Assembly (NCBI RefSeq): GCF_005889735.1
Contig: NZ_VCKY01000015.1
Span: 1 to 64,000 of the forward strand
Reading direction: 5' to 3'
DNA length: 64,000 nucleotides
Origin: Nonomuraea turkmeniaca
GTDB lineage: Bacteria > Actinomycetota > Actinomycetes > Streptosporangiales > Streptosporangiaceae
Shown piece by piece: positions 48,363 to 58,526 of the stretch. Below the pieces are notes generated by a model. It saw only the letters and a program-made list of their open reading frames with translations, made no database searches and was not told where the DNA came from. How positions within the stretch are numbered: the stretch's first letter is position 1; each line of letters begins with the position of its first letter. The position numbers and the translations under genes were made by a program.

Positions 48363-48956
48363 ATGACGAACATGAAACTCGCGGTGATCATCGGCAGCGT
48401 TCGCGAGGGCCGTTCCGGCCCCACGATCGCGAGGTGGTTCGCCGGACAAGCACAGCAGCACGGCCTGTTCGACGTGGACGTCCTCGACGTGGCGGACACG
48501 CCGCTGCCGGTCGAGCTGCCCGCCTCCGCCGAGGAGCTCTTCGACGCGGACGGCCGTCCCGAGGACCTCAGGCGGCTGGCCGCGCGGCTGGAAGGGGCGG
48601 ACGCGTACGTGGTGGTGACGCCCGAGTACAACCACAGCTTCCCCGCCTCGCTCAAGCACCTCATCGACTGGCACCCCGTCCAGTGGCAGGCCAAGCCCGT
48701 CGCGCTGGTGTCGTACGGCGGCTTCGGCGGCGGCCTGCGCGCGGCCGAGCACCTGCGGCAGGTCTTCTGCGAGATGCACGCCGTCACCATCCGCAACTGG
48801 ATCAGCTTCGACCAGCACTGGGCCCGGTTCGACGCCGAGGGGCGGCTGGTGGATCCTGAAGGGCCGGAGAGCGCGGCCAAGGCCATGATGGACCAGCTCG
48901 GCTGGTGGAGCAGGGTGTTGCGGGACGCCCGCCTGGCCACGCCGTACCAGGCCTGA
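48363..48956 (+). CDS. NADPH-dependent FMN reductase family protein
   Basis: A 197-residue flavodoxin-like enzyme. KLAVIIGSVREGRSGPTIAR is the phosphate-binding start, and ADAYVVVTPEYNHSFPASLK is the typical flavin and Tyr region. SYGGFGGGLRAAEHLRQVFC closes the fold. It reduces FMN or quinone-like substrates with NADPH. ATG 48363 (MTNMKLAVI) is used; a TTG at 48354 would add three residues. It is followed 23 bp later by an aldo-keto reductase gene, likely one operon under the divergent MmyB-type regulator. Confidence 0.92.
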   Translation: MTNMKLAVIIGSVREGRSGPTIARWFAGQAQQHGLFDVDVLDVADTPLPVELPASAEELFDADGRPEDLRRLAARLEGADAYVVVTPEYNHSFPASLKHLIDWHPVQWQAKPVALVSYGGFGGGLRAAEHLRQVFCEMHAVTIRNWISFDQHWARFDAEGRLVDPEGPESAAKAMMDQLGWWSRVLRDARLATPYQA

Positions 48957-48979
48957 CTGTCATCGGAGGAGTGGACGTG

Positions 48980-49966
48980 ATGCGATACCGGTTGCTCGGC
49001 CGCACCGGCCTGCGGGTCTCGGAGTTGTTCCTGGGGGCGATGACGTTCCGCTCGGCGACGCCGGAGGTGCGGAGCATCATCGACGCGTACGCCGACGCGG
49101 GTGGCAACGTGGTCGACACGGCCTCGATGTACGGCGACAGCGAGAGCGTCGTCGGCGAGCTGCTGGAGGGGCGGCGGGATCGTTTCGTGCTGGCCAGCAA
49201 GTACACCGGCACCCGTGACCGCGGCGATCTCAACGCGGCCGGCAACCACCGTAAGAATCTGGTGCTGACGCTGGAGCAGAGCCTGCGGCGGCTGCGTACC
49301 GACTACATCGATCTCTACTGGGTGCATGTATGGGACCGGCACACCCCGATCGAGGAGACGATGCGGGCGCTGGACGACGTGGTGCGGTCGGGGAAAGTGC
49401 TCTATGTCGGCATATCGGATGCTCCGGCGTGGCTGGTCAGCCGGGCCAACACGGTCGCCGAGTTCCGGGGGTGGACGCCGTTCGCGGGGTTGCAGGTGCC
49501 GTACAGCCTGCTTCGCAGGGATGTGGAGCGGGAGCTGCTGCCGATGGCGGAGGCGTACGGGATGAGCGTGGCGGCGTGGGGGTCGCTGGAGCGCGGGGTG
49601 TTGTCCGGCCGGTACAACGAGCCGGGGGCGCGGGCGTCTCGGGTGTCGCCGGGCTCGCTCGGCGAGCGTGACCTGGCGGCGGCGCGGGCGGTGGTCGAGG
49701 TGGCCGGGGAGCTGGGGGTCACGGCGTCGCAGGTGGCGCTGGCGTGGGTGATACGGCGGGGCGTCCACCCGATCGTGGGAACCAGCAGCGCCGAGCAGCT
49801 CAAGGACAACCTCGGGGCGTCGGGGCCGGCGCTGCCCGATGAGGCGGTGCGGCGGCTGGAGTCGGCGGTGGAGTTCGAGCTCGGCTTCCCCCGGGACTTC
49901 GTCGAGGCGTGCGACCGCAGCCCGGAGCTGTACGGCGACGCCGTCCACCGCCTCGACGGCCGCTGA
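48980..49966 (+). CDS. aldo/keto reductase
   Basis: A 328-residue AKR with the catalytic tetrad in its usual places: Asp and Tyr in VVDTASMYGDSES, Lys in FVLASKYTGT and His in DLYWVHVWDRHT. NADPH-binding residues lie in HPIVGTSSAEQLKDN. GGAGGA (48965-48970) is 9 nt before ATG 48980; GTG 48977 and GTG 48971 are in frame but fit less well. It probably reduces a reactive carbonyl, in line with the oxidoreductase upstream. Confidence 0.93.
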   Translation: MRYRLLGRTGLRVSELFLGAMTFRSATPEVRSIIDAYADAGGNVVDTASMYGDSESVVGELLEGRRDRFVLASKYTGTRDRGDLNAAGNHRKNLVLTLEQSLRRLRTDYIDLYWVHVWDRHTPIEETMRALDDVVRSGKVLYVGISDAPAWLVSRANTVAEFRGWTPFAGLQVPYSLLRRDVERELLPMAEAYGMSVAAWGSLERGVLSGRYNEPGARASRVSPGSLGERDLAAARAVVEVAGELGVTASQVALAWVIRRGVHPIVGTSSAEQLKDNLGASGPALPDEAVRRLESAVEFELGFPRDFVEACDRSPELYGDAVHRLDGR

Positions 49967-51664: not shown

Positions 51665-52723
51665 CTACGAGCGACGTAGTGGCCGGCCGGCCTCGTGCAG
51701 GTGGCGCAGGGCCTGCCCCCATGAGGCGAACAGGCCGCACTCGGCGTAGTCGACGCCGATCGACCGGCAGTAGTCGCGGACGATGGGCTGCGCCCTGCGC
51801 AGGTTCGCGGTGGGCATGCTGGGGAACAGGTGGTGCTCGATCTGGTAGTTCAGCCCGCCGAGCGCGGTGGTGATCAGGTGCCCGCCACGCACGTTCCTGG
51901 AGGTCAGGACCTGGCGGCGGAGGAAGTCCAGCTCGTCCTCGGCGGTGAGCACGGGCATGCCCTTGTGGTTGGGCGCGAACGTGCACCCCAGGTAGACGCC
52001 GTAGCAGGCCTGGTGCACGGCGAGGAAGACCAGCGCCTTGCCGGGCGGCAGCACCAGGAACACCGCGCCCAGGTACGCCAGGACGTGCGCCCCCAGCAGC
52101 AGCCCCTCCGTCCTGCGGTTCTTGAGCGACGGGCGGCGCAACGCGCGGAAGCTGGAGACCTTGAGGTTCACCCCTTCGAGGGTGAGCAGCGGGAAGAACA
52201 GGAACGCCTGCCAGCGGCCGACGATCCTGGCCACGCCGCGGGCGGCCGCCGCCTGCCGTTCCGACCAGATGAGGACCTCCGGCGAGACGTCGGGGTCGTG
52301 GTCCTCGTGATTGGGGTTGGCGTGGTGCCGTGTGTGCTTGTCCATCCACCAGCCGTAGCTGAGCCCGACGGCCAGGTTGCCCACCAGCAGCCCGGCGATC
52401 CTGGACGTGCGCCGGGAGCGGGAGATCTGGCCGTGCGCCAGGTCGTGGGCCAGGAGCGTCACCTGGGCGAACGCGACGGCGAGCAGCACCGCGACCGGCA
52501 TCTGCCACCAGGTGTCACCCACGGCGGCGAACACCGCCCAGCCGCCCGCGAACAGGGCCGATACCAGGCCGATCCGGGCCGCGTAGTAGCCGGGCCGCTT
52601 GTCCAGCAGGCCCGCCTGCGCGATGCGGCGCGATAGCCTGGCGAAGTCGCTTCCCCGTTCGGCACGGGCGGTGTCCAGCACAGTCAAGGCTCTCTCCGAT
52701 GCTGCCGAGTCGTTTATGATCAC
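51665..52723 (-). CDS. membrane fatty acid desaturase
   Basis: A 352-residue membrane di-iron desaturase with three His boxes: HDLAHGQ, HTRHH and QIEHH. Four predicted TM helices surround them (MPVAVLLAVAFAQVTLLAHD, LLLGAHVLAYLGAVFLVLPP). The last box, with Gln, is like front-end/acyl-lipid desaturases. It would put a double bond into acyl chains. GTG 52723 lacks a Shine-Dalgarno; a TTG at about 52684 behind GGAGAG is an alternative. It follows the flavoenzyme operon on the same strand after a terminator-like repeat and a palindrome, so it may be separately controlled. Confidence 0.9.
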   Translation of the reverse strand: MIINDSAASERALTVLDTARAERGSDFARLSRRIAQAGLLDKRPGYYAARIGLVSALFAGGWAVFAAVGDTWWQMPVAVLLAVAFAQVTLLAHDLAHGQISRSRRTSRIAGLLVGNLAVGLSYGWWMDKHTRHHANPNHEDHDPDVSPEVLIWSERQAAAARGVARIVGRWQAFLFFPLLTLEGVNLKVSSFRALRRPSLKNRRTEGLLLGAHVLAYLGAVFLVLPPGKALVFLAVHQACYGVYLGCTFAPNHKGMPVLTAEDELDFLRRQVLTSRNVRGGHLITTALGGLNYQIEHHLFPSMPTANLRRAQPIVRDYCRSIGVDYAECGLFASWGQALRHLHEAGRPLRRS

Positions 52724-52910: not shown

Positions 52911-54050
52911 TCAGGTGAGCTGCAGGGCCGGCATCTCGGCCGGCGCGGCCGCCACCCCGTGGATGTGCAGTTCCGGGCGGAAGGCGGCCAGGTACGCCTC
53001 GCGGTCGCGGAAGGTCGCGGCCAGGGCGTCGCCGTAGTCGATCAGCTGCCGGTGCGCGTGCCTGCGTGGCTCGTACCGGGCGTACAGCAGCCGGTCCAGC
53101 AGCTCGGCGTCGCCTCCTGCCGCGCTGATGACGTCGGCGAGGATCTCCGCGTCGTGCAGCGTGTAGCTCATGCCCATGCCCGTCATCGGGTGGCAGGCGA
53201 ACGCGGCCGAGCCGAGCAGGGCGGCGTTGCCCTTGTGGTACGCCGACACCCGCAGCGACGAGACCTTGATCCGCTGCCAGCTGGCGGGCTGGAGCACGTT
53301 GAAGGCGTCGGAGCTGTCGGTGACGAACTTCTTGAGCTCGTCGATCAGGGCCGGGATGCCGTCCTCGAAGATCTCCTTGTCGTCCTCGGGGGGCAGGCCG
53401 ACGAACACCCTGGCCTGGTCCCTGTTGAGCGGGTAGAGGTAGGCCAGCCAGCCGTCGGAGCTGAAGTACAGCCGGTTGAGCTGGGCGACGCTGGCCGTCA
53501 GCGGCACGGTGGCCACCCGCATCAGCAGCCGCTCGTACGGCATCGTGACCTGCTCGATGCCGAGCGCCTGGCGCACGGCGGACTTGGTGCCGTCGGCGCC
53601 GATGACGACGTCGGCCCGCAGCCGCCGTCCGTCGGAGAGGGTGAGCTCCTCGACCCGGTGGTCGTCGACCGCGATGTCGGCGATCTCGGCGTCGAACCAG
53701 AAGTCCACGCCCTCCATCGCGCAGGCCGCGTAGATGAGCTCGACGAGCTCCTTGTACGGGCGGATGAGGAAGCCGCCGTCGGGGAAGCGGCATTCCCTGA
53801 TCGGGTCGCCGTCGTGGTAATAGCGGATGATGTCGCGCCGCAGGCCATGGCGTTCGACGAGGTTCGCCAGCCCGTGACGAGCGAGCACCCGCAGCCCGGG
53901 GGGTTTGAGGAAGTCGGCGCCCGCGCTGGGGATGGACGGTCCCTGCTCGATGACGACGACGCGCCGGCCGCGCCGGCCCAGGAGTAAGGCCAGGAAGCAG
54001 CCGCCCAGCCCGGCGCCGACGATGGCTACGTCGCACGATGTGGTTGCCAT
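52911..54050 (-). CDS. FAD-dependent monooxygenase (group A, UbiH/PHBH-like) with altered GD motif
   Basis: A 379-residue flavoprotein. VAIVGAGLGGCFLALLLGRR binds the ADP part of FAD, and DVVIGADGTKSAVR is the DG motif. The third motif, normally GDAAH...P..GqG, here reads LLGSAAFACHPMTGMGMSYT: Asp is replaced by Ser and His by Phe. FAD may be held differently, or the enzyme may be a halogenase/reductase-like variant. It is the last gene of a five-gene leftward operon, 26 bp after the MFS exporter gene, so it likely hydroxylates the compound that is exported. Confidence 0.87.
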   Translation of the reverse strand: MATTSCDVAIVGAGLGGCFLALLLGRRGRRVVVIEQGPSIPSAGADFLKPPGLRVLARHGLANLVERHGLRRDIIRYYHDGDPIRECRFPDGGFLIRPYKELVELIYAACAMEGVDFWFDAEIADIAVDDHRVEELTLSDGRRLRADVVIGADGTKSAVRQALGIEQVTMPYERLLMRVATVPLTASVAQLNRLYFSSDGWLAYLYPLNRDQARVFVGLPPEDDKEIFEDGIPALIDELKKFVTDSSDAFNVLQPASWQRIKVSSLRVSAYHKGNAALLGSAAFACHPMTGMGMSYTLHDAEILADVISAAGGDAELLDRLLYARYEPRRHAHRQLIDYGDALAATFRDREAYLAAFRPELHIHGVAAAPAEMPALQLT

Positions 54051-54076
54051 GACGAGAGCCCTTTCGGTGGTACGAA

Positions 54077-55663
54077 CTAGTTCGAATTCCCGCGGGTCCC
54101 CGCGAGCGGTCCGGCCTCGGCCGCCCGCTGCCGCGGGATGTGGTCCATGGGGGGTGTGCGGGTCTCGACAGGCAGCAACGCGTCCGCCTCCGCCGCGACG
54201 GTGGCGAGGGTCATCCGCAACTCCAGCAACATCCGGCGCGGCACCTTGATCATGACGTCGCCGGGGTCGGGCCGCAGCCGGGTGATCTTCGTGAGGGCCA
54301 GCGCGCCCATGAGGACCGAGATCGCCACGCAGATCGCCAGCGCGCCGGCCAGGCCGGCGAACGGGCCCGCGAAGGGGCCGGCCACGAACGGGTGGTCGAT
54401 GACAACTGATACGACGGTGATGCCGACGGCACCTCCGACCATGCGGGCCATGGTGGCCGCGCCGACGGCTGAGGCGTACTGCTGCGGGCGGGCGGCCAGG
54501 GTGGTGGCCACGGAGGTGCCCGGCGCCAGCGCGCCGACGCCCATCCCCAGCACGACGCTGGCGACCAGCCCCCAGACGGTGGGCCCGACCTGCGTGAGCA
54601 CGAGCACGCAGGCGCCGCCGCAGAGCAGCGAGCCGGCGTAGATCAGGCCGTACGCGCCGATCCGCTTGACGAGCTTTCCGGCCAGGAAGCTCGTCACGAC
54701 GACGGCCACCGACGTGGGCGTCAGCCACATGGCCACCTCGAGCATGGGGTAGCCGAGGTGGAGCAGGTACAGCGGCTGCACGGTCAGCAGCCCGTACGAC
54801 AGCGCGCCGAACCCCCAGGTGGCCAGCCAGCCCCAGACGAACTTGGGCCGGCGCCACAACGCCAGGTCGATGGCGGGCAGGCGGTGGTGCCTGGCCTGCG
54901 CGAGCGCGCCGCCGAGCAGGAGGAGGGCGGCGAGCGCCAGCCACACCACGTCCATGCCCCAGGCCATGGCCTTGGAGATGGCCAGGACGACGACCGCGAT
55001 CCCGGCGGCGAGCAACCATGCGCCGAGCACGTCGGGGAGGCCTCTGGCGCCGGCGCGCCGGCCCGAGGGCAGCGCGAAGCACGCGATGAGGAGCGCGACG
55101 CCGATCACGACGTCCGGGACGAACAGGGCTCGCCAGCCGACGGTGGCGGCCAGCCAGCCGCCGCCCGCCTGCATGAGCAGGCAGCCGAGCCCAGAGGCGG
55201 AGCTCCACAGCGCGATCGCGCCGCGCCGCTGCGACTCCGGCAGCTCCCCGAGCAGCAGCCCGAGGCTGGCCGGGATCATCGCCGCGGCGCCCGCGCCCTG
55301 GACGGCCCGGGCGGCCAGCACGAGCGACCAGGACTCCACGGCGACGGTGGCGACGCCACCCAGCACGAACACCACCAGCCCGACGACCAGGACCCGCCGG
55401 CGGCCGAACAGATCGGCCCAGCGGCCGGCCGTCGCCAGCAGCGCCGCGATCGGGATGAACGCCGCGCTGGTCAGCCAGACCAGGTCGCCCAGGGGCATGG
55501 CGGCGCCTGCCGGCGTGTAGCGCAGCACCCCGACCGCCAGGGTGGTGGCCGTGGTGTCGGCCATCACCGTCAACATGACACCCGCGCCGACCAGCCGCAG
55601 CATCACCGCGTGGCGGCGGCTTACGCCTGTCGTGCTCGTCCCCCGCGCTGGTGACGAACGCAC
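54077..55663 (-). CDS. MFS drug exporter, DHA2 (14-TM, EmrB/QacA) type
   Basis: A 528-residue transporter with 14 predicted TM helices. It has the DHA2 motif A region GRWADLFGRRRVLVVGLVVF and motif C-like GSLLCGGACVLVLTQ; ASLGLLLGELPESQRRGAIA follows helix 4. The C-terminal 70 residues are cytoplasmic and hydrophilic (PVETRTPPMDHIPRQRAAEA). GTG 55663 is fixed by GGAGG 7 nt upstream. It sits between the two flavoenzyme genes. The likely role is export of, or self-protection from, the product of the operon. Confidence 0.93.
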   Translation of the reverse strand: MRSSPARGTSTTGVSRRHAVMLRLVGAGVMLTVMADTTATTLAVGVLRYTPAGAAMPLGDLVWLTSAAFIPIAALLATAGRWADLFGRRRVLVVGLVVFVLGGVATVAVESWSLVLAARAVQGAGAAAMIPASLGLLLGELPESQRRGAIALWSSASGLGCLLMQAGGGWLAATVGWRALFVPDVVIGVALLIACFALPSGRRAGARGLPDVLGAWLLAAGIAVVVLAISKAMAWGMDVVWLALAALLLLGGALAQARHHRLPAIDLALWRRPKFVWGWLATWGFGALSYGLLTVQPLYLLHLGYPMLEVAMWLTPTSVAVVVTSFLAGKLVKRIGAYGLIYAGSLLCGGACVLVLTQVGPTVWGLVASVVLGMGVGALAPGTSVATTLAARPQQYASAVGAATMARMVGGAVGITVVSVVIDHPFVAGPFAGPFAGLAGALAICVAISVLMGALALTKITRLRPDPGDVMIKVPRRMLLELRMTLATVAAEADALLPVETRTPPMDHIPRQRAAEAGPLAGTRGNSN

Positions 55664-55757
55664 GTGGTCACCTCCAAGCTATGAGTGGTCTCCGCCGGCC
55701 GGCACACTCCGGCTGTGCGACCGGCGAGATGGACATGTCGAGTTGTGCGCGAATGAA

Positions 55758-57158
55758 TCAGGCGCCGTAGCGGCCGGGCGAGAGCAGGCCGTCGGGGTCG
55801 AGCGCCGTCTTGAGCCGGTGGAGCATGCCGAGGCTGGCGGTGCTGGTCTCGGACCAGACGTCGGCCGCGGCGTGGTCGATGTCGGAGCGGTAGATCGCGC
55901 AGCCGTGGCCGCGCAGCACGCAGTTGCCGTCGTTGCGGAGCTGGTGCGCCCGGTAGGGGGCCTCCGGCGCGTGGCGGTCGAAGAAGATCTGGATGACGCC
56001 GTTGGCCATGTGCTTGCTGACGAGGTTCCACTCGACCATGAGGGCGGTGGTGTGCGCGTCCACGGCCGTCTGCAGGGCGGCCACGATGTCCTCGGTCCTG
56101 CGGGCGCTGGTCGGCATCAGCGGCATCAGCGCCAGGAAGCCCATCCGGCCCTCGTCGATCTGGTCGCAGGAGGTCACGCCGAGCGCGTTGCGCACGCCCA
56201 GGCACGTGGGGATGCCCTGCGCCATGAGCGCCCTGGCGTACAGCGGGTCGCCGGGCCGCACCTCGGCGGTGTCGAGCACGCGCAGCGCCTCGGCGCCCTC
56301 GACCTCGACCAGCGCCTTGCGGAGGAGCTCCTCGGCGAGCTCGACCGCGGCGTCGCTGCCGAACAGCGGCCCCATGATGCTGAACAGGCTGGGGTCGGCG
56401 CCCTTGGGCAACATCCAGTCGCCGTGGCTCGGGACCAGCGCCAGCTCGCGCACGCGCAGCATCCCGTCGGCGGGGTTGCCGCGGCGCAGGAAGCCGGCGA
56501 TCGCGTCGAGCGCGACGCCGACCTGGTCGCGCGGGATGCGGCCGTGCACCAGGCCGACGGTCTGGGGCCGCGGCACCAGCGCGACCGCCATGGCGGTGAC
56601 GATGCCCAGGTTGTGCTGGACGAACGCGGCCGTCAGGTCGGGCCCGGCGACCCGGCCGTGGTAGCGGCCGGTCGGGTCCAGCCCGCCGGTGGTGACCACG
56701 CTGCCGTCGGCCAGCACGGCCTCCAGCCCGGCCACGTCGTGGACGCGGGAGCGGAAGGTGCCGTCGCCCCGGTCGAGGGCGTTGCCGACGACGGAGGTGT
56801 CGGCACAGGAGTTGGTGACGTTCAGCATCCACGGGGTGTCCCGCAGCACCGCGGAGAGCTGCGCCTGCGTGACTCCGGGCTCGATGACGGCGAACCCGGA
56901 TTCCAGGTCGACGCTGCGGATGCGGTTCATGCCGCTGAGGTCGACGACGACGTTGTCGTCGGTGACCGGCATGGCCGAGCCCATTCCCCAGTTCTTGCCG
57001 GTGCTGATCGGGTAGAGGTGGTGCCTGGTCGTCATGGCCTTCCTGACGAGGGCGCGTACCTCGTCGAGGGTGCGCGGCGTCTCGGTGCCCACCACGGAGC
57101 GTGGCTGGTGACCGCCGACGTCACGCGGCACCAACTCCACTCGCGTTAGCTCCTGCAT
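55758..57158 (-). CDS. FAD-linked oxidase, vanillyl-alcohol-oxidase / p-cresol methylhydroxylase type
   Basis: A 466-residue PCMH-type flavoprotein. The FAD domain has YPISTGKNWGMGSAMPVTDD and VVVDLSGMNRIRSVDLESGF, then VIEPGVTQAQLSAVL and NSCADTSVVGNALDRGDG. The C-terminal cap resembles the 4-cresol dehydrogenase/VAO family and ends at LLSPGRYGA. Such enzymes oxidise phenolic side chains, alcohols or amines. GAGGAG lies 8 nt before ATG 57158, which is preferred to 57179. It starts 25 bp after the stop of an 85-residue protein gene. Neither a cytochrome subunit nor a CxxCH motif is nearby, so it may use O2. Confidence 0.88.
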   Translation of the reverse strand: MQELTRVELVPRDVGGHQPRSVVGTETPRTLDEVRALVRKAMTTRHHLYPISTGKNWGMGSAMPVTDDNVVVDLSGMNRIRSVDLESGFAVIEPGVTQAQLSAVLRDTPWMLNVTNSCADTSVVGNALDRGDGTFRSRVHDVAGLEAVLADGSVVTTGGLDPTGRYHGRVAGPDLTAAFVQHNLGIVTAMAVALVPRPQTVGLVHGRIPRDQVGVALDAIAGFLRRGNPADGMLRVRELALVPSHGDWMLPKGADPSLFSIMGPLFGSDAAVELAEELLRKALVEVEGAEALRVLDTAEVRPGDPLYARALMAQGIPTCLGVRNALGVTSCDQIDEGRMGFLALMPLMPTSARRTEDIVAALQTAVDAHTTALMVEWNLVSKHMANGVIQIFFDRHAPEAPYRAHQLRNDGNCVLRGHGCAIYRSDIDHAAADVWSETSTASLGMLHRLKTALDPDGLLSPGRYGA

Positions 57159-57182
57159 GTCTCTCCTCAGGTCTTCCACGTG

Positions 57183-57440
57183 CTAGGCGGTGTGCTGGAG
57201 CAGGTCGTCGATGGAGCCGATGGCCTGGTTGGACATCTCCCTGATGCCGAGCAGGCGCTGCTCGACGAACGGGTCGGTCTCGGGGAGGGCGTCGGGCAGG
57301 TCGAGAGTGCCGGAGCTCGCGCGCGGCGGGGACTGCACGGGGACCTCGTGCAGGGCGTACGGGTGACGCCGCGGGCGGACGGTGTCGGTGTCACGGGACT
57401 CGTGCCTGGTGCGACCGGGCAGGTGCGGGGGGGTTCGCAT
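57183..57440 (-). CDS. 85-residue protein of unknown function, possible peptide substrate or small subunit
   Basis: An 85-residue protein with a clear RBS (GGAGAG 9 nt before ATG 57440). The first 45 residues are basic and rich in Pro, Arg and His (LPGRTRHESRDTDTVRPRRH). The last 40 are acidic and probably helical (DALPETDPFVEQRLLGIREM, then NQAIGSIDDLLQHTA). It has no Cys, no signal peptide and no TM segment. Position just before the FAD oxidase suggests either a partner subunit or a precursor peptide. The lack of Cys and the few Ser/Thr in its C-terminus argue against common RiPP classes. I do not recognise a family. Confidence 0.7.
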   Translation of the reverse strand: MRTPPHLPGRTRHESRDTDTVRPRRHPYALHEVPVQSPPRASSGTLDLPDALPETDPFVEQRLLGIREMSNQAIGSIDDLLQHTA

Positions 57441-57510
57441 GACGGGAGCTCTCCTACCGGATGTGAAGGGTGTTTTCCGGGTGGCCGCTCGCCGTTGAGC
57501 GGCGTCTGTG

Positions 57511-58413
57511 TCAGCGCGCCGGAGCTCGGCCTTCCTCGTGACCGGGGTGTCCGGCCCGTGGAGTGACCGCCGTGGGGATGACCCGCGGCGCGCCGTGGTT
57601 GATGACGCTCGCGGCGATGCGGCGTTCCGCGAGCCCCATGTGGGGGCGGCCGCCGCCGGTGGAGCCCGGCCGGGTGGCCGAGCCGCGGATCATGGAGCTG
57701 GCGTGCACCCATCGGTGTGACTCGGCCAGCACGTCTCGTTGTGCGCGGCGCAGGTCGGAGTGCCGCGCGTACTGTTCGCAGACGGCGCCCGCAAGCACCC
57801 GCGCCATGACGAGGTGCTCTTCGCAGGCCTTCGCCACCTTGGCCTCCAGGCCGATGACCTGGGCCAGCAGCAGCTGCAGGTGGGGCAGCTCCGAGCTGCG
57901 CTCGAACCCGTCGAGCTCGGCCAGCCGCGCGGGCCAGCGCAGCCGCCGCTCGATCGAAGCGCACGTGGCGGCCACGACCTCCGCGGCGGGTCCGTCGTCC
58001 GGGCTCTGCCCCTCGAGCTGAACGGCGCGTTGGGCGGTGTACGCGAAGTCGGACAGGCGGCGCAGACCGCTCTGCAGCAGGCGTACGCGGTTGTGCAGGC
58101 AGGCGGCGCTCCAGCCGAGCACCAGCAGCCGGTCCTGGTCGGCCTCGCAGTGCCAGCCGACGAGGGACACCTCGCGGGCCATGCGGTGGTAGAGCACCCA
58201 GCCCTCCTGGCGGGCGGGCGGCTCCGGGGTGTCGATCCACACCTGCAGGCCGCCCGGCGGCAGCTCGCCGACACCGACGTCCATGCCGTCGGGCGCGACC
58301 CTGGCGCAGATCCGCCGGACCACGCGCAGATGCGGCGGAGCCACCGACTCCGAGCCGTCCCAGACAGGCGGCACTCGCTCTGGGGCCACTTTCGCCCTTG
58401 GCTCGATGCTCAT
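57511..58413 (-). CDS. unrecognised 300-residue protein, first gene of the flavoenzyme operon
   Basis: A 300-residue soluble protein without a family I recognise. The N-terminal half is mixed (RICARVAPDGMDVGVGELPP, GWVLYHRMAREVSLVGWHCE). The middle is long amphipathic helix (RVRLLQSGLRRLSDFAYTAQ, LLLAQVIGLEAKVAKACEEH). The last 60 residues are Gly/Pro/Arg-rich and probably disordered. AGGAGG lies 7-12 nt before ATG 58413. It is 70 bp upstream of the 85-residue protein gene and is the first gene behind a promoter region with repeated sites. A scaffolding, binding or enzymatic role is equally open. Confidence 0.75.
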   Translation of the reverse strand: MSIEPRAKVAPERVPPVWDGSESVAPPHLRVVRRICARVAPDGMDVGVGELPPGGLQVWIDTPEPPARQEGWVLYHRMAREVSLVGWHCEADQDRLLVLGWSAACLHNRVRLLQSGLRRLSDFAYTAQRAVQLEGQSPDDGPAAEVVAATCASIERRLRWPARLAELDGFERSSELPHLQLLLAQVIGLEAKVAKACEEHLVMARVLAGAVCEQYARHSDLRRAQRDVLAESHRWVHASSMIRGSATRPGSTGGGRPHMGLAERRIAASVINHGAPRVIPTAVTPRAGHPGHEEGRAPAR

Positions 58414-58450: not shown

Positions 58451-58526
58451 TCTGTAAATTCACACTTAATGTTGCCGCTCTGATCGTGAGCACCGGGCGG
58501 TTTTCTGTCAACTGGCACTTAACAGA
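58451..58526. promoter_or_regulatory. two related 19-bp sites and a 23-bp palindrome at the flavoenzyme operon promoter
   Basis: TCTGTAAATTCACACTTAA (58451-58469) and TCTGTCAACTGGCACTTAA (58504-58522) match at 14 of 19 positions and are 53 bp apart, about five helical turns. The second extends to a 23-bp palindrome (58504-58526) whose 11-bp arms match at 9 positions. On the minus strand this palindrome contains TTGACA, followed after 17 bp by CACGAT, a plausible promoter for the operon starting at 58413. The rest of the 253-bp gap to the sialidase-like gene shows TAGGGT and TAGAGT as weak rightward -10 candidates. Confidence 0.6.

Follow-up and report, generated by a model that had tools for sequence, protein, structure and literature searches.

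A conserved flavoenzyme and exporter operon of Nonomuraea appears to be one arm of a predicted two-locus regulon

Operons that combine flavoenzymes with an exporter are a known kind, and operators lying over the −35 element are typical of repressed, inducible efflux operons. Regulators of the XRE/DUF5753 type pair with small DUF397 partners in WhiJ-like modules. Here, we analysed a five-gene operon in the first 64,000 nucleotides (the window) of contig NZ_VCKY01000015.1 of Nonomuraea turkmeniaca. Its genes, called A to E in the order of reading, encode two proteins of unnamed families (A and B), a flavoprotein of the vanillyl alcohol oxidase/p-cresol methylhydroxylase (VAO/PCMH) superfamily (C), a DHA2-like exporter (D) and a flavin monooxygenase (E). 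The original prediction, made from the window alone, had described a five-gene operon; from its predicted operators, it appears to be only one arm of a private two-locus regulon, the other half of which is located on another contig of the same genome (C88).

The solved enzymes related to C and E have been described. According to an excerpt of PMC7248105, PqsL of Pseudomonas aeruginosa hydroxylates an aromatic amine and has no intrinsic activity with NAD(P)H, and R41, I43, G45 and C105 are the positions of a PqsL quadruple mutant. A cluster of three residues, the P-cluster (Tyr91, Tyr471 and Arg472 in EUGO numbering), is conserved in all 4-phenol oxidoreductases according to a portion of PMC11148156, and the same three residues are strictly conserved in fungal VAO according to a portion of PMC12909556. 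Passages of PMC7617285 state that the oxidases carry an acidic residue plus Leu at the flavin N5, and that nsVAO binds flavin adenine dinucleotide (FAD) non-covalently. A covalent link is not an absolute criterion.

The evidence for the regulon comes from the promoter sequences. Two similar sites of 17–18 bp were present upstream of A in all 20 aligned A promoters, and at all five loci that lack A, site 1 was found upstream of B together with a degenerate site 2. The A promoters of the second locus likewise carried two sites, spaced 52–55 bp (individual sites having one mismatch in some cases), in 25 of the 29 loci; the other four had a single site. The joint operator pattern was GNWAASTGNSRSTTDAC, from which site 2 of the window differs at two positions. 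In the 11.35-Mb genome of the strain itself, this pattern gave exactly three exact matches, all at the two loci, and the reversed control gave none. Across 57 genomes, there were 75 exact matches (reversed control, four matches). Comparison with the coordinates of the A and B profile matches placed 72 of them upstream of A or B in one of the two loci and the remaining three elsewhere (G151 C4, G284 C75 and G258 C110). Three Nonomuraea genomes that showed neither locus had no match, and 23 genomes of other genera had one. When one mismatch was allowed, the genome of the strain gave eight matches vs 16 for the control, and no further members of the regulon were seen.

The second locus was recognized by the A and B profiles, which, run separately, both matched a second place in many of the same genomes; the second-place matches of the B profile, in 10 genomes, each lay beside an A match. 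We fetched 40 stretches around A-like genes and examined 30 in detail, covering the second loci of 22 of the 24 genomes that carry C (the other two being at G169 C249 and G261 C713). A was accompanied by a match to an XRE regulator gene at 29 of the 30 examined stretches, L113 being of another type, and thus at all 29 second loci with operators. The XRE gene was divergent to A wherever the genes were listed, and the one copy scanned carried a DUF5753 domain. Eleven A clusters from other genera or of a different type (L101–L109, L113 and L114) had no operator within one mismatch and no XRE gene in the stretches read. Because these operator-less clusters also lack the XRE gene, the XRE protein is favoured as the binder. 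By co-occurrence they also speak against A as the binder, although an A of different specificity may still fill that role. With its XRE/DUF5753 gene beside A, the second locus resembles WhiJ-like modules; unlike these, B had no DUF397 match, and the window gene next to A is BNR/sialidase-like.

The second loci fell into two classes. In class I (n=7), the exporter was intact, and B carried RRPYQHPY or RRPYPHPY; these loci also encode an arylmalonate-decarboxylase-like protein, a flavin monooxygenase, an Asp/Glu-racemase-like protein, a porphobilinogen synthase and a stand-alone glutamyl-tRNA-reductase dimerisation domain. In class II (n=15), the exporter was fragmented or absent, or, in L142, reduced to a shortened frame of 411 codons (39% identical); the monooxygenase and decarboxylase-like genes were retained, and B carried PHE(V/F) instead of HPY. 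In seven further second loci, no B was found with a hidden Markov model (HMM) of the B tail, and none had an intact exporter. Gene C was missing in all seven class I genomes and present in all 22 other genomes with a second locus. Thus, all seven second loci with an intact exporter had an HPY-type B in a genome without C, and all 15 that retained B next to a decayed, shortened or absent exporter had lost HPY in a genome with C. Put the other way, none of the 22 C-bearing genomes examined had an intact exporter at the second locus, and the B of that locus (15 found) lacked HPY. Of the ten Nonomuraea genomes without C, seven were the class I genomes, and the remaining three had no such second locus. 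These observations show that, in the genomes examined, an HPY-type B goes with an intact exporter, whichever of the two loci holds the pair; this provides a direct handle on the function of B.

The operon itself was conserved in order. We searched for E in a collection of named genomes, to which the counts for E refer. All 28 named loci with E belonged to Nonomuraea or to a misnamed [Actinomadura] species, the closest named relative of E being that of Nonomuraea sp. G32 (95% identity). The order B-C-D-E was found in 27 of the 28 (B being cut by a contig end in three of these), the exception, L023, being cut inside D. The full set A-B-C-D-E was present in order in 19 of the 28; in five (L024–L028), A was absent upstream of B-C-D-E on a contig that continued, and contig ends cut four (L008, L016, L017 and L023). 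Among 249 genomes of the order, C was found at an identity of at least 66% in 24 of 34 Nonomuraea genomes. All 24 also held a main-type B by profile search, and 19 a main-type A, which in G188 and G195 lay on a different contig than C; five had no A at the locus. The best-scoring match of C outside Nonomuraea was 35% identical over nearly the full length, and a partial match was 49% identical over 172 residues. The original prediction had looked to gene neighbourhoods across Streptosporangiales; judged by these searches, the operon looks like a trait of Nonomuraea rather than of the whole order. Two irregular copies of C were noted, one broken across two frames by a frameshift or sequencing error (G280:C1:4611407-4612805) and one a second, shorter match (45% over 211 residues; G225:C4:837489-838127) in a genome that also holds the operon.

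On re-reading of the window, the five leftward open reading frames (ORFs) and the protein families of the original prediction were borne out at their coordinates, with intergenic gaps of 70 (A/B), 24 (B/C), 94 (C/D) and 26 bp (D/E). The four strong ribosome-binding sites that it counted were read as GGAGG, AGGAG, GAGGAG and GGAGG before A to D, that of E being weaker (AAAGG). A codon-usage script selected the same five genes, with a later start for D; having been partly trained on A, C, D and E, it was independent for B only. The proposal of a single operon with a dedicated promoter, two flavoenzymes and an exporter is supported by the gene order and promoter sequence conserved across loci, and A to E would form one transcription unit as part of the overall explanation given below, which we hold at about an even chance.

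By its domain match (FAD_binding_4, PF01565, E 2.1e-24), which places it among the VAO/PCMH FAD-binding proteins, C is a VAO-type flavoprotein. Its best solved matches in the PDB were 9fge and 9ffk, with further matches to PCMH (1wve), VAD (8s7r) and EUGO (5fxd); 9fge and 9ffk probably represent nsVAO and its T181D variant, given the deposit list in the accessible part of PMC7617285 and the Thr/Asp difference between the two sequences. Like the 4-phenol oxidases and dehydrogenases, C aligned over nearly its full length to 8s7r and kept two of the three P-cluster residues (Tyr423-Arg424). Unlike them, it has Met59 in place of the phenolate-binding Tyr, the segment STGKNWGMG aligning with STGKNMGYG, and Met59 was invariant in 11 of 11 aligned orthologues. 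The flavin-linking His387 of 8s7r aligned with Arg338 of C, at a variable position with no His or Tyr in the orthologues. At the flavin N5, as placed by alignment to 9fge and 9ffk, C has Asn116 (Asn in two, Ala in eight and Ser in one of 11 orthologues), followed by an invariant Ser117, and thus lacks the acidic residue plus Leu of the oxidases. Because key residues of the 4-phenol oxidases are missing, C was placed in the VAO type and not as a phenol oxidase, an activity for which it is only a candidate. The inventory of the original prediction stood, but in its VAO-type FAD oxidase one of the three phenolate-binding residues and the flavin-linking residue are missing.

Protein E matched PF01494, and its best solved relative by a wide margin was PqsL (2x3n; phmmer, 1.3e-58 over residues 4–361), the similarity extending over nearly the full length. 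Both share GAD(F/L)LKP. The positions of the PqsL quadruple mutant differed: R41 had no aligned Arg, I43 was replaced by Ser42 and C105 by Tyr99, and only the Gly of G45 was kept. Because three of these four residues are changed, the substrate of E cannot be inferred from PqsL. Protein D resembles the DHA2 drug-efflux exporters of the EmrB type in its matches to MFS_1 (PF07690, 131 bits) and TIGR00711 (108 bits), and differs from them in that the latter score lies below the curated subfamily cut-off of 230. It was only 44–46% identical to the class I second-locus exporter.

The best explanation of the whole, which in our judgement is about evenly poised between right and wrong, is a two-locus Nonomuraea regulon that oxidizes and exports a small metabolite. 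A repressor or activator, most likely the second-locus XRE/DUF5753 protein or else A, would bind the paired 17-bp operators around the TTGACA-N17-CACGAT promoter and switch both loci together. When switched on, E, as a PqsL-like monooxygenase, and C, as a VAO/PCMH-type and probably non-covalent FAD dehydrogenase or oxidase, would oxidize a small, probably aromatic, metabolite; the flavin monooxygenase and arylmalonate-decarboxylase-like enzyme of the second locus possibly join the pathway, and D would export the oxidized product. Protein A would be a pathway-associated sensor or adaptor. The regulon would thereby make or finish the metabolite, with A and B as lineage-specific accessory proteins. 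The most likely product is a small, oxidized, exported and probably aromatic metabolite. Gene order, its conservation, the operators, membership of the regulon and the pairing of HPY-type B with an intact exporter were established by computation; co-transcription, the binder, whether control is positive or negative, the substrate and product, and what A and B do are inferred.

Several points weigh against this explanation. No scaffold-forming enzyme is present, and the substrate must therefore come from elsewhere. A consensus promoter scan at a stricter threshold found no promoter in the region. The operator pattern was partly built from the genomes in which it was counted, so that only its rarity elsewhere is independent, and it does not fit site 2 of the window. 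The genomes are related, and the seven-versus-15 split may reflect one or two events. In addition, L132 and L136–L138 keep the second-locus A although neither B nor the monooxygenase of that locus was found there, and the role assigned to A is a guess because its fold was not recognized.

The main rival, unlikely in our view and still a serious contender, is the inducible degradation and efflux of an external aromatic compound, in which a repressor is released by the compound, E and C oxidize it and D pumps it out. The operator over the −35 element resembles those of repressed, inducible efflux operons, D resembles drug exporters, and the lack of a scaffold enzyme agrees with this reading. The nearest solved relatives of C also act on lignin-derived phenolics, according to passages of PMC7617285. 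However, no ring-cleavage or coenzyme A enzyme was found among the operon genes, the regulon is split over two loci with lineage-specific A and B, and relatives of A and of the exporter occur in other stretches with biosynthetic-looking genes.

Protein B had no Pfam match (DUF397 included) and no NCBIfam match at E 1, and thus matched no known ribosomal precursor peptide family. In 25 sequences, 20 columns were invariant, including RHPY and most of the C-terminal segment (RLxxIRExSxxAIGSIDDLLxxT), the most conserved part of B; the stretch between them varied in length and carried short repeats in some species. The record of Nonomuraea gerenzanensis holds a B of 69% identity. All 25 sequences had RHPY, encoded by differing codons (four for R and three for P), which indicates selection at the protein level. 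An HMM of 13 B tails did not recover the exporter tails among 934 predicted proteins; the B proteins scored from 23 to 60 bits and the best other protein 5.9 bits. A docking helix shared by B and the exporter tail was considered and rejected, the likeness being by eye only. Within the preferred two-locus explanation, and with the same even standing, B would be a small partner protein in which a variable, probably disordered HPY stretch is joined to a conserved C-terminal segment.

It is distinctly unlikely that B is instead a ribosomal peptide precursor, with a C-terminal recognition part and a core in the RHPY region, of which C and E would oxidize Tyr or His and which D would export. As in clusters for ribosomally synthesized and post-translationally modified peptides, a small conserved ORF directly precedes an oxidizing enzyme and an exporter is present; the invariance of RHPY despite varying codons, the restriction of HPY, among second loci, to those with an intact exporter, and B homologues in L108 and L109 with the same tail and a different middle motif also fit. 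Unlike in such clusters, no match to a known precursor family was found, the operon has no protease gene, and B persists without the proposed core in 15 second loci. The middle motif varies by cluster type, the tail, which is the most conserved part, being retained even where HPY is missing. A peptide product is possible, but the varied enzymes that accompany relatives of B and the persistence of B without HPY make it the less favoured reading; of the two products first proposed, small-molecule or peptide-derived, the small molecule is thus preferred. By a still slimmer possibility, B would found a new class of ribosomal peptides with a fixed C-terminal follower and a short HPY-centred core exchanged between clusters. 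If so, C and E would be peptide oxidases outside the known substrate ranges, the DHA2 protein would export the core, and the requirement for the exporter would explain the loss of HPY in parallel with exporter decay.

The slimmest chance goes to A and B as a local pair of regulators with no link to the chemistry, under whose control the flavoenzymes and exporter merely came: nearly every B found sits near an A gene, the clade without A excepted, and A accompanies many different enzyme sets, but the five named loci without A keep B, C, D and E, and the 11 other A clusters lack the operator.

Protein A had no Pfam or NCBIfam match at E 1 and no sequence match in the PDB. Its family was found in 39 of the 249 order genomes, in seven genera of one family (two matches being weak), and in one of 396 phylum genomes, that of the strain itself, the number of Streptosporangiaceae among the 396 not being given. 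Among the genomes searched, the family was thus seen only in Streptosporangiaceae. An AlphaFold2 model of A (mean predicted local distance difference test (pLDDT) score, 73.6; blocks of 78–94 within residues 31–230) predicted with confidence an alpha-beta-beta-alpha-beta-beta-alpha domain followed by helices; the N-terminal domain modelled alone was of low confidence (pLDDT 60). Structure searches gave no convincing match to a known fold, whether of a DNA-binding or an RRE type (Foldseek, best E 0.043; VIA, best Z 8.0).

The pattern that the original prediction named as refuting it, homologues of A and B scattered without the flavoenzymes, was seen in part: homologues of A also occur in stretches with DHA2-like exporters and without C, and L109 has a B homologue with no E-like monooxygenase in its stretch. 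Across the stretches read, A was found with many different enzyme sets, and it may therefore serve as a probe for unlisted clusters. In the stretches L113 3459-8767, L114 4359-6225, L107 726-1895 and 7179-8042, and L109 12127-17834, the company of A-family genes includes a chorismate-binding enzyme, an isochorismatase and a short-chain dehydrogenase; a polyketide synthase of type III and a 3-deoxy-D-arabino-heptulosonate 7-phosphate (DAHP) synthase; and a thiamine diphosphate (ThDP) enzyme and polyamine-type genes.

What may be new here, and we hold this weakly, are the two families without a name (A and B), the division of a private regulon over two loci and the loss of HPY together with the exporter. 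In open-access full texts, we found no paper joining Nonomuraea, FAD-dependent and precursor peptide; none joining ribosomally synthesized and post-translationally modified peptides, vanillyl alcohol oxidase and precursor peptide; and none joining biosynthetic gene cluster, porphobilinogen synthase and self-resistance. In the portion of PMC9299179 available, Nonomuraea appears for the hexose oxidase Dbv29. The operon is a conserved unit for oxidation and export that lacks a scaffold gene; its genus is known for antibiotics, and two of its protein families are unmatched in Pfam and NCBIfam. Its connection to a second locus through the operator makes it possible to name and test the remaining pathway and the switch.

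Table 1. Positions in the window of the operon genes and of the predicted control elements
Feature	Coordinates	Strand	Basis
Operator site 1, GTTAAGTGCCAGTTGAC, imperfect palindrome overlapping the −35 element	58507..58523	-	Promoter alignment, genome-wide searches
Operator site 2, ATTAAGTGTGAATTTAC, 53 bp downstream of site 1	58454..58470	-	Promoter alignment, direct-repeat search
Proposed sigma-70-type promoter, TTGACA, 17 bp, CACGAT	58483..58511	-	Read by eye from alignment
Gene A, 300 aa, first operon gene	57511..58413	-	ORF and alignments
Gene B, 85 aa	57183..57440	-	ORF, alignments, profile matches
Gene C, VAO/PCMH-superfamily FAD protein	55758..57158	-	PF01565, PDB alignments, orthologue alignment
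Gene D, DHA2-like major facilitator exporter, GTG start	54077..55663	-	PF07690, TIGR00711, alignment
Gene E, FAD_binding_3 (pHBH-like) flavin monooxygenase	52911..54050	-	PF01494, phmmer, alignment
TTA codon 22 of gene E, possible bldA-type control	53985..53987	-	Alignment of named loci

An extra porphobilinogen synthase and a stand-alone dimerisation domain of glutamyl-tRNA reductase were observed in clusters of the second type, at L097 3250-7406 and with the same genes in L098, L099, L100, L112 and L108; a further cluster of this type contained a porphobilinogen deaminase fragment (L106 2744-6301). Each of the seven class I genomes, and G282 as well, held two ALAD genes; in G260 the second copy was partial, and G000, G100 and G141 had a single gene. 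These genes may point to a haem-pathway-derived product or to self-resistance to a haem-pathway inhibitor.

Half of the named loci (14 of 28) had a TTA codon within E, in 13 cases as codon 22 or 23. Downstream of E, on the same strand, the window encodes a fatty-acid desaturase (51665-52684). This gene was found in 23 named loci, with a distance of 160–410 bp from E in 21 of them; it may belong to the operon or reflect stable synteny. An NADPH-dependent flavin mononucleotide (FMN) reductase and an aldo/keto reductase (48363-49966), outside the operon and 3–4 kb off its end, could be a source of reduced flavin.

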